This document shows positions 3,641 through 8,175 of a stretch of DNA of 64,000 nucleotides, piece by piece. Position 1 is the first letter of the stretch, and each line of letters opens with the position of its first letter. Below the pieces are notes generated by a model. The model saw only the letters and a program-made list of their open reading frames with translations. It ran no database searches and was not told the origin of the DNA. The stretch lies in assembly GCF_030552895.1 (NCBI RefSeq), contig NZ_CP130649.1, positions 2,046,001 through 2,110,000 of the forward strand. Direction: 5' to 3'. This DNA is from Tatumella ptyseos (lineage in GTDB: Bacteria > Pseudomonadota > Gammaproteobacteria > Enterobacterales > Enterobacteriaceae). Position numbers and translations under genes: made by a program.

Positions 3641-3794
3641 AGCGTAATCTCAATTAACAAATAAAATTCAGATATATGTCGTAAAGCCATCAATGGCTTA
3701 CCGCGTAATTATTGCTTAATAAGTGATAAATTTCACTTAACTTGGGAAATAAAATTGTTTAAGGGATTAAAAGGAAAAGAAATTGATCAAGAAT

Positions 3795-3870
<76 letters not shown>

Positions 3871-3906
3871 ACATCTAGGAATTTCATTGTACAAACTCGA
3901 GGAGTT

Positions 3907-3982
<76 letters not shown>

Positions 3983-4015
3983 TTCAATGAAGGTGTCGGT
4001 GTTACTGACGCCGGA

Positions 4016-4044
4016 ATAATAGGTAACTGGCAGATAACTGTCAA
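4016..4044 (-). promoter_or_regulatory. Sigma-70 promoter of the tRNA-Ala pair
   Basis: On the minus strand a perfect -35 TTGACA (complement of 4039-4044) is separated by exactly 17 bp from TATTAT (complement of 4016-4021). A GC-rich discriminator follows, as expected for a stringently controlled tRNA promoter. The first tRNA begins 33 bp downstream. Confidence 0.85.
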
Positions 4045-4269
4045 TGCCATTTTCTCTCTACCTGCTCGATCGCTGAAAATTACAGCAATGTGCTATGAAA
4101 GCCATCACTCTACAATTTTATTGACCTTTTTTAAGTGGTTAGCACTGATAATTATAGAAAGTATGAGTAAACGCATAATCTGTATGATTAACGCTTTTAT
4201 TTTATTCCGCTTCACGTTATTTTCGTCATTACGAGTTAACGTAAAACAATCAACTAGAAGGAACTGATT

Positions 4270-4620
4270 GTGAATAAGGAATGGATGACACCTGAAGAAT
4301 TGGCACAGGAGACGGGTTACTCGCGTCAGACTATTAATAAATGGATTAAACGTGAAGGATGGTCGACCGTTGCGAAGCCCGGAGTACAGGGTGGTAAGGC
4401 GAGGTTAGTACATATAGACCAATCGGTAACCGAATTTTTGAAGTCTGTTCGCCATGCGGCAGAACCGCGAAGCCATTATACGGTTCGCAAAGAGCAACTT
4501 ACCCAAATCTTACTGAGTTCAGTTCAACAAATGAGTGCTGATGAAAAAGCCCAGCTAACTTCTTTATTATTGCGAGAAGGGATCAGTGGTATTTTGACTC
4601 GTTTGGGTATCACCTCATAA
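4270..4620 (+). CDS. yfeC: YfeC-like putative DNA-binding regulator
   Basis: A 116-residue protein whose first 40 residues look like a helix-turn-helix (TPEELAQETGYSRQTINKWI), followed by a conserved GGKARLVHID segment. This is the pattern of E. coli YfeC/YfeD (DUF1323), small predicted transcription regulators encoded between the alaWX tRNAs and gltX, exactly this gene's position. E. coli has two adjacent paralogues; only one is present here, so YfeD is equally possible. The start is GTG at 4270, with AAGGAA at 4257-4262 as ribosome binding site. It converges on gltX across a strong hairpin. Targets are unknown. Confidence 0.75.
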   Translation: MNKEWMTPEELAQETGYSRQTINKWIKREGWSTVAKPGVQGGKARLVHIDQSVTEFLKSVRHAAEPRSHYTVRKEQLTQILLSSVQQMSADEKAQLTSLLLREGISGILTRLGITS

Positions 4621-6073: not shown

Positions 6074-6296
6074 TTATGGTTTGCCTTAACGAACAGTGGG
6101 GGTGAACACCCGATAAAACCTTGTGGAATCCTATTTGCTTCGCACAGTGTAACAGTTAGCGCTTTTTCCTCAATAATAAGACAAGACTAATTCTCGCGAG
6201 GTTGCGCAAATTATGAGGCTATTTTCAGCAAATTGCTCAAATGGCCGACATACTGGTGAAATTTACACCGAACGAAAAATTAAGTGATAAAAAGCG

Positions 6297-6324
6297 TTGA
6301 CTCAAAATCAACTATCCCTATAAT
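6297..6324 (+). promoter_or_regulatory. Promoter of the tRNA-Val/Lys operon
   Basis: TTGACT at 6297-6302 and TATAAT at 6319-6324, 16 bp apart, followed by a GCGAC discriminator. The first tRNA begins 17 bp after the -10 element. Confidence 0.85.
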
Positions 6325-6341
6325 GCGACTCCACACAGCGG

Positions 6342-6417
6342 GGGTGATTAGCTCAGTTGGTAGAGCATCTCCCTTACAAGGAGGGGGTCGGCGGTTCGAA
6401 TCCGTCATCACCCACCA
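6342..6417 (+). tRNA. valU: tRNA-Val (anticodon UAC), copy 1
   Basis: A 76-nt cloverleaf with encoded CCA. Anticodon loop CTTACAA gives UAC. First gene of a four-tRNA operon equivalent to E. coli valU-valX-valY-lysV. Identical in sequence to the next two copies. Confidence 0.97.
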
Positions 6418-6457
6418 CTTATTACTAAGTGGGCTCGCAGTGTAAGGTTATGAATTT

Positions 6458-6533
6458 GGGTGATTAGCTCAGTTGGTAGAGCATCTCCCTTACAAGGAGG
6501 GGGTCGGCGGTTCGAATCCGTCATCACCCACCA
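6458..6533 (+). tRNA. valX: tRNA-Val (anticodon UAC), copy 2
   Basis: Identical to copy 1 over 76 nt, with encoded CCA. Separated from copy 1 by 40 bp and from copy 3 by 32 bp of unrelated spacer. Confidence 0.97.
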
Positions 6534-6565
6534 AATTCAGCCAAAAGGTATTTTTATACCGAAGT

Positions 6566-6641
6566 GGGTGATTAGCTCAGTTGGTAGAGCATCTCCCTTA
6601 CAAGGAGGGGGTCGGCGGTTCGAATCCGTCATCACCCACCA
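6566..6641 (+). tRNA. valY: tRNA-Val (anticodon UAC), copy 3
   Basis: Identical to copies 1 and 2. Only 4 bp separate its CCA end from the following tRNA-Lys, so the two must be released by processing of a common precursor. Confidence 0.97.
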
Positions 6642-6645
6642 CTTC

Positions 6646-6721
6646 GGGTCGTTAGCTCAGTTGGTAGAGCAGTTGACTTTTAATCAATTGGTCGCAGGTT
6701 CGAATCCTGCACGACCCACCA
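6646..6721 (+). tRNA. lysV: tRNA-Lys (anticodon UUU)
   Basis: A 76-nt tRNA with anticodon loop CTTTTAA (UUU) and encoded CCA. It is the last gene of the operon. Its final 18 nt (6704-6721) are the first element of the tandem array that follows and are repeated three more times downstream. Confidence 0.97.
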
Positions 6722-6729
6722 AATTCAGT

Positions 6730-6756
6730 AAAAAAGCACCCTCTGGGTGCTTTTTT
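6730..6756. terminator. Array terminator 1 (end of tRNA-Val/Lys operon)
   Basis: GCACCC/GGGTGC stem (6736-6741, 6745-6750) flanked by A6 and T6, so it can work in both directions. It lies 8 bp after the tRNA-Lys CCA. Confidence 0.93.
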
Positions 6757-6896
6757 CGTTTCCAGCCTTCAATAGTAAATCGTGCTGGATGAGAACCTGC
6801 AGCAGGGTCGAGTCGAACGCAGTGAGACAACGTTGCTAGGCAACGACCCGAAGGGCGAGCGCAGCGAGTCATCCTGCACGACCCACCAAATTCAGT

Positions 6897-6923
6897 AAAA
6901 AAGCACCCTCTGGGTGCTTTTTT
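6897..6923. terminator. Array terminator 2
   Basis: Same stem and A6/T6 flanks as terminator 1, following the second tRNA-Lys end copy. Confidence 0.9.
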
Positions 6924-7064
6924 CTTTTCCAGCCTCCCATAGTAAATCGTGCTGGATGAGAACCTGCAGCAGGTCGAGTCGAACGCAGTGAGACAACGTT
7001 GCCCTAGGCAACGACCCGAAGGGCGAGCGCAGCGAGTCATCCTGCACGACCCACCAAATTTAGT

Positions 7065-7092
7065 AAAAAAGCACCCTTCTGGGTGCTTTTTT
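7065..7092. terminator. Array terminator 3 (also faces yfeR)
   Basis: Same GCACCC/GGGTGC stem with a four-base loop and A6/T6 flanks. Being symmetric, it is the first terminator met by transcription coming from yfeR on the minus strand. Confidence 0.9.
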
Positions 7093-7257
7093 CGTTTCCA
7101 GCCTCCCATAGTAAATCGTGCTGGATGAGAACCTGCAGCAGGTCGAGTCGAACGCAGTGAGACAACGTTGCTAAGCAACGACCCGAAGGGCGAGCGCAGC
7201 GAGTCATCCTGCACGACCTACCAAATTCTGTAGAAACTACCCGCTACTTTTCAATTC

Positions 7258-8175
7258 CTAACGTACACTAATTTGCCGCTTTTCAGCCAACTGCTGCGCT
7301 TGCTCGGTAATCAGTTGCCATATCACTTCTGCAGCGGGAGATAATGATCGATTTTTCCGACGGATCAATGTCAGTAATCGTCCCCTCTCCGGGATAATTT
7401 TTCTGACTGTTAGCTGGGTCTCACGCGGTAGAGGGAGTGCGAGTGCCGGCAGAATACTAATCCCAATCCCTGCATCGACCATCGTAAACAGCGTGCTGGG
7501 GTGTCCCACTTGCTGGACAACTTCAGGGTGACCACCTTGCTGCTGGAAAATGGCATCAATCAGTACTCGGCTCCCCGAAGCGTAATCTTGTAACACGCAT
7601 TGGCGCAAGGCGATATCTGTCCAAGAGACTCGAGGCTGCTCCGCGAGTGGGTCATCGTCTCGACATAATAAAAGGAAAGGATCTTGCAGGATAGGTTGTG
7701 TCTCAAACTCTCGCGTGTTTTGAAGTTCAATTACAATACCAAAATCAACTTCCTCCTGTAGCACCGCCTGTATCACTGATTGCTGCACACTGTCTTGTAG
7801 CAGTAATCGTATCTCTGGGTAGCGCTGTTGGCAGGCAGCTAAACATTTTGGCATTAACTGTGCTGAAATTGTCTGGCTCGCCGCTACCCTGACGGTACCG
7901 GTGCGCTGTTCGCCATGACTATGTAAATCCTTGATTAAACTATCCATATCGTCAATCAATAAGGTCATGCGTGAGGCAAGTTGTTTGCCCGCTGAGGTCA
8001 AAACCACTTCTCGTGTGGTGCGATCAATCAAACGTAATGCGAGTGTCTGCTCCAATTCTTTAACGGCATGGCTGACTGCCGACTGACTCAAGCCAATCAA
8101 CTCCCCTGCTCGACTAAAACTCTGTTGCTCTGCCACCGCAACAAAGATACGCAGTTGCCGTAAACTATAATTCAT
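7258..8175 (-). CDS. yfeR: LysR-type regulator YfeR
   Basis: 305 residues: a winged helix-turn-helix in the first 60 residues (LRQLRIFVAVAEQQSFSRAG...LSQSAVSHAVKELE), a linker helix, then a periplasmic-binding-protein-like effector domain from about residue 90. It is divergent from yfeH with an 81-bp gap, the arrangement seen in E. coli, where YfeR controls yfeH and was linked to osmolarity in Salmonella. The effector is unknown. It converges on the tRNA-Lys repeat array, which supplies its terminators. ATG start at 8175. Confidence 0.85.
   Translation of the reverse strand: MNYSLRQLRIFVAVAEQQSFSRAGELIGLSQSAVSHAVKELEQTLALRLIDRTTREVVLTSAGKQLASRMTLLIDDMDSLIKDLHSHGEQRTGTVRVAASQTISAQLMPKCLAACQQRYPEIRLLLQDSVQQSVIQAVLQEEVDFGIVIELQNTREFETQPILQDPFLLLCRDDDPLAEQPRVSWTDIALRQCVLQDYASGSRVLIDAIFQQQGGHPEVVQQVGHPSTLFTMVDAGIGISILPALALPLPRETQLTVRKIIPERGRLLTLIRRKNRSLSPAAEVIWQLITEQAQQLAEKRQISVR

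Follow-up and report, generated by a model that had tools for sequence, protein, structure and literature searches.

A tandem array behind a tRNA-Lys gene of Tatumella ptyseos consists of three copies of a known tRNA-linked repeat (TLR), the Rfam family RtT (RF00391), and is an ordinary member of this family. The array lies in the 64-kb stretch of DNA analyzed here, which we call the window. The original prediction had described the units as an element of the kind that follows E. coli tyrT and as carrying a tRNA 3' end, and both points held. It had also regarded the sequence as different from rtT and as possibly an independent example, and had proposed a comparison with Rfam. That comparison gave 83.4, 81.9, and 78.7 bits for the three units against a gathering score of 45, each unit being a full-length RtT match. 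These matches, together with an orthologous RtT of 47.3 bits behind lysV of E. coli K-12, refute both statements and lead us to reject an independent origin.

TLRs were first described by Egan and Landy in 1978 (cited in PMC8144298), and their hallmark is an 18-19 bp identity to the end of the upstream tRNA or 5S gene (PMC8144298, 2021). The window array is located downstream of tRNA-Lys on the same strand, and its repeats end in 18, 18, and 17 of the 18 nt of that gene's 3' end. TLR loci hold one to five copies; three RtT were found here and four at a second locus of the same genome. The second array (positions 3665-4340 of locus L060; G000:C1, about 1043664-1044338) comprises four diverged copies behind three tRNA-Lys genes; one of the four has diverged further and scored 52.2 bits. 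For K-12, 22 TLR copies at ten loci have been counted (Rudd 1999, cited in PMC8144298); as that source describes them, they likewise end in 18-19 bp of the upstream tRNA or rRNA end and occur in tRNA operons, and the window array does not differ from them in kind. The RtT repeats behind E. coli tyrT-tyrV (rttR) belong to the same covariance family, which the window units match over its full length, and also form several units that end in the host tRNA 3' end; at the K-12 tyrT locus, four RtT matches scored 133-138 bits, and one of the four lies between the two tRNA genes. Unlike these repeats, the window array has a lysine host and a symmetric terminator-like hairpin before each RtT, which in our own scan was absent from 50 of 50 Tyr-linked units among the matches listed. 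The tRNA-Lys host had been taken as a sign of an independent example; the host is indeed tRNA-Lys, but this is a common one (81 of 219 sampled units among the matches listed). The window array itself adds an ordinary member to a class known since 1978.

The host tRNA-Lys (anticodon ttt; 6646-6721, plus strand; ARAGORN; 79.2 bits against the Rfam tRNA model) is the last gene of a Val-Val-Val-Lys cluster. A sigma-70-like promoter candidate with an 11/12 match was located upstream of the first tRNA-Val (6297-6324, plus strand), in a scan that gave two matches over both strands against 1.1 expected by chance. TRF reported one row for the 64-kb window, namely this array (6704-7236; period 167, 3.2 copies, 95% matches). 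The predicted unit starts at 6704, 6871, and 7039, the truncated start at 7206, and the unit lengths of 167, 168, and 167 bp were all correct, and the 18-nt unit opening agreed with the tRNA-Lys end (6704-6721) at 18/18, 18/18, 18/18, and 17/18 positions. Pairwise identity of the units was 96.4% in each of the three pairs. The anatomy is corrected in one respect: the opening of unit 1 is the tRNA itself, and the added tails number three, each closing one RtT.

All three RtT are on the plus strand and align with positions 1-130 of the 130-position model. RtT 1 (6768-6888) closes with tail 1 (6871-6888), which is identical to the tRNA-Lys end at 18/18 positions. Its 5' arm (6781-6790, from the Rfam alignment) is complementary to 6871-6880 of the tail and forms part of the closing stem in the predicted fold; the arm CGTGCTGGAT stands opposite the tail ATCCTGCACG with one U-U mismatch. 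RtT 2 (6935-7056) has its arm at 6948-6957 and its tail at 7039-7056 (18/18), and RtT 3 (7104-7223) has its arm at 7117-7126 and its tail at 7206-7223 (17/18).

Terminator-like hairpins on the plus strand separate these elements. Hairpin 1 (6730-6756; A6-GCACCC-TCT-GGGTGC-T6; -15.8 kcal/mol) lies between tRNA-Lys and RtT 1, followed by hairpin 2 (6897-6923; -15.5 kcal/mol) and hairpin 3 (7065-7092; -17.7 kcal/mol); shuffled sequences gave means between -3.7 and -4.5 kcal/mol. Each is built of an A run and a T run flanking a GC stem, between the end of the tRNA or a tail and the next RtT. The decaying start of a fourth spacer (7224-7236, plus strand) runs to the end of the TRF array and is followed by no strong hairpin (-1.6 kcal/mol). 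A simple consensus terminator scan of 6200-7400 reported zero terminators because its rule needs a T run past the stem, and here the T run pairs with the A run inside the stem. The array is overlapped by two ORFs (110 and 176 amino acids), but these cross the tRNA and the repeats, and protein coding was set aside.

The array shares its position with the RtT behind E. coli lysV. Gene order in the window and in K-12 agrees (Ala tRNAs, yfeC (and yfeD), gltX, valU, valX, valY, and lysV). Beyond lysV in another E. coli, the LysR gene, yfeH, and ligA correspond to the LysR-like, symporter-like, and ligA-like ORFs of the window, as named from their translations, so that gene order is conserved on both sides. 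The first of these ORFs is convergent with the array (7258-8175, minus strand) and takes the place of xapR or yfeR in E. coli, its product being a LysR-type regulator by translation. The K-12 RtT behind lysV (valU-valX-valY-lysV) has the same 18-nt tail, a terminator hairpin on either side, and the same layout of tail, terminator, RtT, tail, and terminator. The window has three units with an arm, whereas K-12 has one 156-bp unit without an arm by eye, and other strains have none or two. In RefSeq, an 'RtT sRNA' is annotated behind lysV in many E. coli, and the MG1655 record has no feature at the lysV RtT. A tRNA-Ala(ggc) gene pair on the minus strand of the window (3795-3982) corresponds to E. 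coli alaX-alaW.

Copy number at this site varied among relatives and strains. The orthologous lysV site holds three units in the window and one each in two genus relatives, G203 and G205, one of whose two contigs begins inside the tRNA. For E. coli, 60 records were taken at even steps down a ranking of 5378 matching records. At lysV, one RtT copy was found in 24, none in 34, and two in 1, and the best match lay elsewhere in 1. The match stopped short of xapR in 14 of the 60 rows; two of these were inspected, and both were the lysV locus with other genes downstream. Inspection also revealed two-copy lysV sites in two E. coli strains. At the empty site of E. coli EC28, tRNA-Lys, terminator, and flank are directly joined, with one 156-bp repeat fewer than in K-12. 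The tRNA can therefore stay intact where the lysV RtT is missing, and natural strains can do without the element at that site. According to the original prediction, presence in a single assembly with changing copy number would point to an artefact; the array is not confined to one assembly, but strains and species do differ in the number of copies. E. coli strains with zero, one, or two lysV copies are ready-made comparisons for any effect of the element.

Genomes were surveyed for RtT matches at E 0.001 or better, and every count includes the window's own genome. At the genus level, 4 of 5 genomes had matches; the figure was 33 of 60 for the family, 28 of 148 for the order, and 34 of 185 for the class. 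Of the 185 class-level genomes, only 12 were above the Rfam cut-off. A sample of 219 units was assembled from all 84 listed matches of the order survey (148 genomes), 129 among the matches listed in the family survey (60 genomes), and 6 from the genus; the partial match G185:C4:236835-236933 and the class-level matches lie outside it. A same-strand tRNA ended within 750 nt of the unit's end in 215 of the 219 units among the matches listed, and the stretches of the other four were ended by a contig end. Among these listed matches, tRNA-Lys was the host of 81 units, tRNA-Tyr of 50, tRNA-Pro of 36, tRNA-Ser of 35, tRNA-Arg of 9, tRNA-Glu of 3, and tRNA-Gln of 1; none was called for 4. A 25-base pattern from the window arm gave zero matches when scanned over the genome contigs.

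The tails follow the host tRNA. Among the matches listed, 193 of the 215 units with a called host matched its 3' end at at least 15 of 19 nt, and 169 did so at 18 or 19. Every one of the 193 was closest to the end of its own amino-acid type when compared with the other types in the sample. Several of the 22 poorer-tailed units retain the inner tail and have lost the outer part. Outer-tail decay was scored in 212 of the 215 units, three being skipped for short downstream sequence. Decay was found in 17 of 118 last copies and 6 of 94 internal copies (Fisher p = 0.076), a trend only where a clear rule had been expected. In last copies among the matches listed, the outer eight positions were complete in 91 of 118 and the inner ten in 93 of 118. 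The unpaired outer tail is thus kept about as widely as the paired part, and RNA pairing alone is therefore an insufficient explanation.

We further analyzed the pairing of arm and tail. The arm was anchored on a conserved motif 3' of it, which was present in 147 of 193 units among the matches listed; the 46 units in which it was missing (34 Lys, 7 Arg, 3 Tyr, and 2 Pro) were excluded. The K-12 lysV copy also has no arm by eye. Identical arm-tail pairs were collapsed to 117 distinct pairs and then to 27 tail classes; the rows are not independent, and no tree was used. At the outer six positions, the arms of the 117 distinct pairs formed 5.03 pairs with their own tail versus 3.67 with the tails of other types, and own-tail pairing was above the unit's own other-type mean in 109 of 117. 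Class-level permutations over the 27 tail classes reached the observed mean in 0 of 20000 trials. When only the inner four pairs were used to set the register, Watson-Crick pairing amounted to 62.8% with own and 33.5% with other tails. When 57 diverse cores were aligned, two to five standard pair types occurred at 8 of the 9 pairs of the arm-tail helix, and the inner hairpins were also pair-variable. These results indicate that, in most sampled units, the RtT strand opposite the tail has varied together with the host tRNA, as judged from the 147 anchored units. An earlier pairing test, in which the register was set by fit to the own tail and was thereby biased, had given 34 wins and 42 ties of 131 for own against best other type; it was replaced by the motif-anchored tests. 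The passages covered, from papers other than the main older ones, were not found to state that the arm co-varies with the host tRNA; the closing stem is already in the Rfam model. For the class as a whole the wider sample may help, with its seven host tRNA types, host-following tails, tail-following arm in most units, and variable lysV site.

Taken as an orthologous TLR array of variable copy number, the window array is in our judgment likely to be weakly transcribed by read-through and processed like a tRNA end. RNA polymerase leaving the Val-Val-Val-Lys cluster would sometimes pass hairpin 1 and transcribe RtT 1, and more rarely RtT 2 and 3; given three strong symmetric hairpins, expression of RtT 2 and 3 would stay low. 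Hairpins of this kind were scored, by a rule of our own, between the preceding end and the unit in 214 units, one being unscorable among the matches listed. They were found before 113 of the 214 (Pro 36/36, Ser 31/34, Lys 45/81, Arg 1/9, Tyr 0/50, Glu 0/3, and Gln 0/1, among the matches listed). A second same-strand tRNA was located at most 300 nt downstream of 46 of the 219 units among the matches listed; lying inside tRNA clusters, these 46 units are likely to be co-transcribed with the cluster.

Each transcribed RtT would fold with its arm pairing with the inner part of its own tail, a stretch that we take to be tRNA positions about 59-68. The enzymes that process tRNA 3' ends might then cut it after its CCA-like end. 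Recombination or slippage between direct repeats, each made up of the 18-nt tail and the adjoining terminator, would add and remove copies and would restore an intact tRNA and terminator. As many sampled E. coli strains have no copy there, the RtT RNA would be at most mildly useful at a lysV-type site. Precedents come from the 5S-linked TLRs. The TLR class is described in PMC8144298 as having had no known function before the 2021 proposal for these members. The TLRs RrA, RrB, and RrF of the E. coli rRNA operons lie between T1 and T2; they are reported to be expressed and processed, to bind Hfq and CsrA, and to have modest phenotypes (PMC8144298). They share with the window the order terminator, TLR, terminator, and read-through of T1 is their proposed route of expression; unlike the window units, whose expression is predicted, they have a 5S rRNA host and demonstrated expression. 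RNase E is the enzyme proposed for them, and the copied end has been suggested to serve its recognition (PMC8144298).

A possible, although rather doubtful, alternative is that the repeat persists at the DNA level and has no RNA job. Slippage or gene conversion would keep the tail equal to the tRNA, and template switching in an imperfect palindrome would keep the arm complementary, so that arm-tail co-variation would reflect a mutational process and not selection. In agreement with this, non-pairing tail positions are kept nearly as well as pairing ones. G-U pairs accounted for 23.4% of the non-Watson-Crick positions with own tails versus 19.7% with other tails, with no clear enrichment, and selection on RNA is therefore not separated from a DNA-level process. 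In units whose tail departs from the host, the arm fits the tail only in 7, the host only in 8, both in 7, and neither in 13, and the near balance of 7 and 8 gives no sign of selection for one fold. The 34 of 60 sampled E. coli lysV rows without a copy point the same way. On the other hand, the inner pairing part is complete in 11 of the 23 units with a decayed outer tail. The inner core hairpins vary in a paired manner, several core motifs are conserved across tRNA types, and RtT is found in many genera (17/66 in the order sample; 33/60 in the family sample). Template switching over about 100 nt is also long for this process, which counts against such an origin of the arm.

A small RNA or sponge, in which RtT RNA released from the tRNA transcript would bind Hfq or CsrA or pair with other small RNAs, seems unlikely for the window array. 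It is favored by the Hfq and CsrA binding of RrA, RrB, and RrF (PMC8144298) and by studies that report RtT RNAs as detected or up-regulated (PMC4986893, PMC8092127). The 3'ETS-leuZ sponge, like the RNA proposed for the window, is derived from a tRNA transcript at its 3' side (PMC8144298); the passage covered does not describe it as a repeat copying the tRNA end. However, each window unit has one GGA, which lies in the arm and is paired in the predicted fold, while for the RNAs that it names as binding CsrA, PMC8144298 gives between two and about 18 sites. According to the same source, deletion phenotypes were modest, and a claim about starvation that concerned the tyrT repeat has been retracted. 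A CsrA sponge would need at least two accessible GGA per RNA and was rejected for the window array, as every unit offers a single one and this is paired within the arm; if read-through joined the three units in one RNA, it would contain three GGA.

It is still less likely that the TLR is an RNA tailored to its own host tRNA, whose arm could bind and hold the 3' portion of broken tRNA or of a precursor that has folded wrongly. As the tail is a copy of the host end, the arm is antisense to about positions 59-68 of the upstream tRNA as well, and both arm and tail have changed along with this tRNA. The results on outer-tail decay, on arm fit to tail or host, and on G-U share, which bear on this reading, tip neither way. 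The further step, in which the tail would be a built-in competitor that releases the captured tRNA and the element would check the tRNA it follows, appears similarly improbable.

That the array is the footprint or decoy of an integrative element, with the 18-nt tails as copies of an attachment site, is very improbable. The segment from the T loop to the CCA end is a usual attachment segment of tRNA-targeting integrases, and the copied stretch begins in the T loop and ends at CCA, but the arm-tail match and the ordered core are unaccounted for. No integrase was found beside lysV at two E. coli lysV loci inspected with 6 kb of flank. With the window array as the only query, 1 of 50,697 phage records matched, a 515-kb Salmonella record. 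Among 72,556 plasmid records, 31 matched; every one of these is typed non-mobilizable, and 3 of ten listed are 4.8-4.9 Mb in size. These searches give no support to the array as mobile-element cargo. Near-identical tandem units invite assembly error, but an assembly artefact or a passive duplication confined to this genome is hardly credible given the diverged four-RtT array behind tRNA-Lys in the same genome, the RtT in 4 of 5 genus genomes (the window's included), and the single units at the same site in two others; the copy number in this assembly could still be wrong by one.

RtT-family RNAs are mentioned in several other reports. Actinobacillus pleuropneumoniae has two beside tRNA genes (PMC4986893), and an RtT sRNA was up-regulated at low temperature (PMC8092127). 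An rtT RNA with a 175-bp VNTR is included in a table of insertions and deletions (PMC2658671), a tandem GA motif is noted in RtT (PMC7657543), a cluster with rtT-like members has been described (PMC2965389), and RtT is among the annotated RNAs in PMC4710047. RefSeq notes on lysine-linked RtT of E. coli (L159, L160, L161, and L163) give the wording 'processed from tyrT transcript', which belongs to the tyrT copy and was transferred to other loci. In some E. coli (L161 and L162), xapR is absent beside lysV, a FlxA-like gene and then yfeR stand there instead, and the match stops within about 15 nt past the terminator. Short Lys- or Arg-linked variants (L049, L058, and L054) lack the usual inner hairpin, and part of the Rfam alignment then falls on the tRNA or on its end. 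At the class level, the best nine new loci were all downstream of a same-strand tRNA (Gln, Tyr, or Ser), and the tail was full or nearly so in 8 of the 9 by eye. Two class-level RtT, L149 and L154, were linked to tRNA-Gln(ctg); by eye, arm and tail are complementary over about 12 nt in L149 and about 16 nt in L154.
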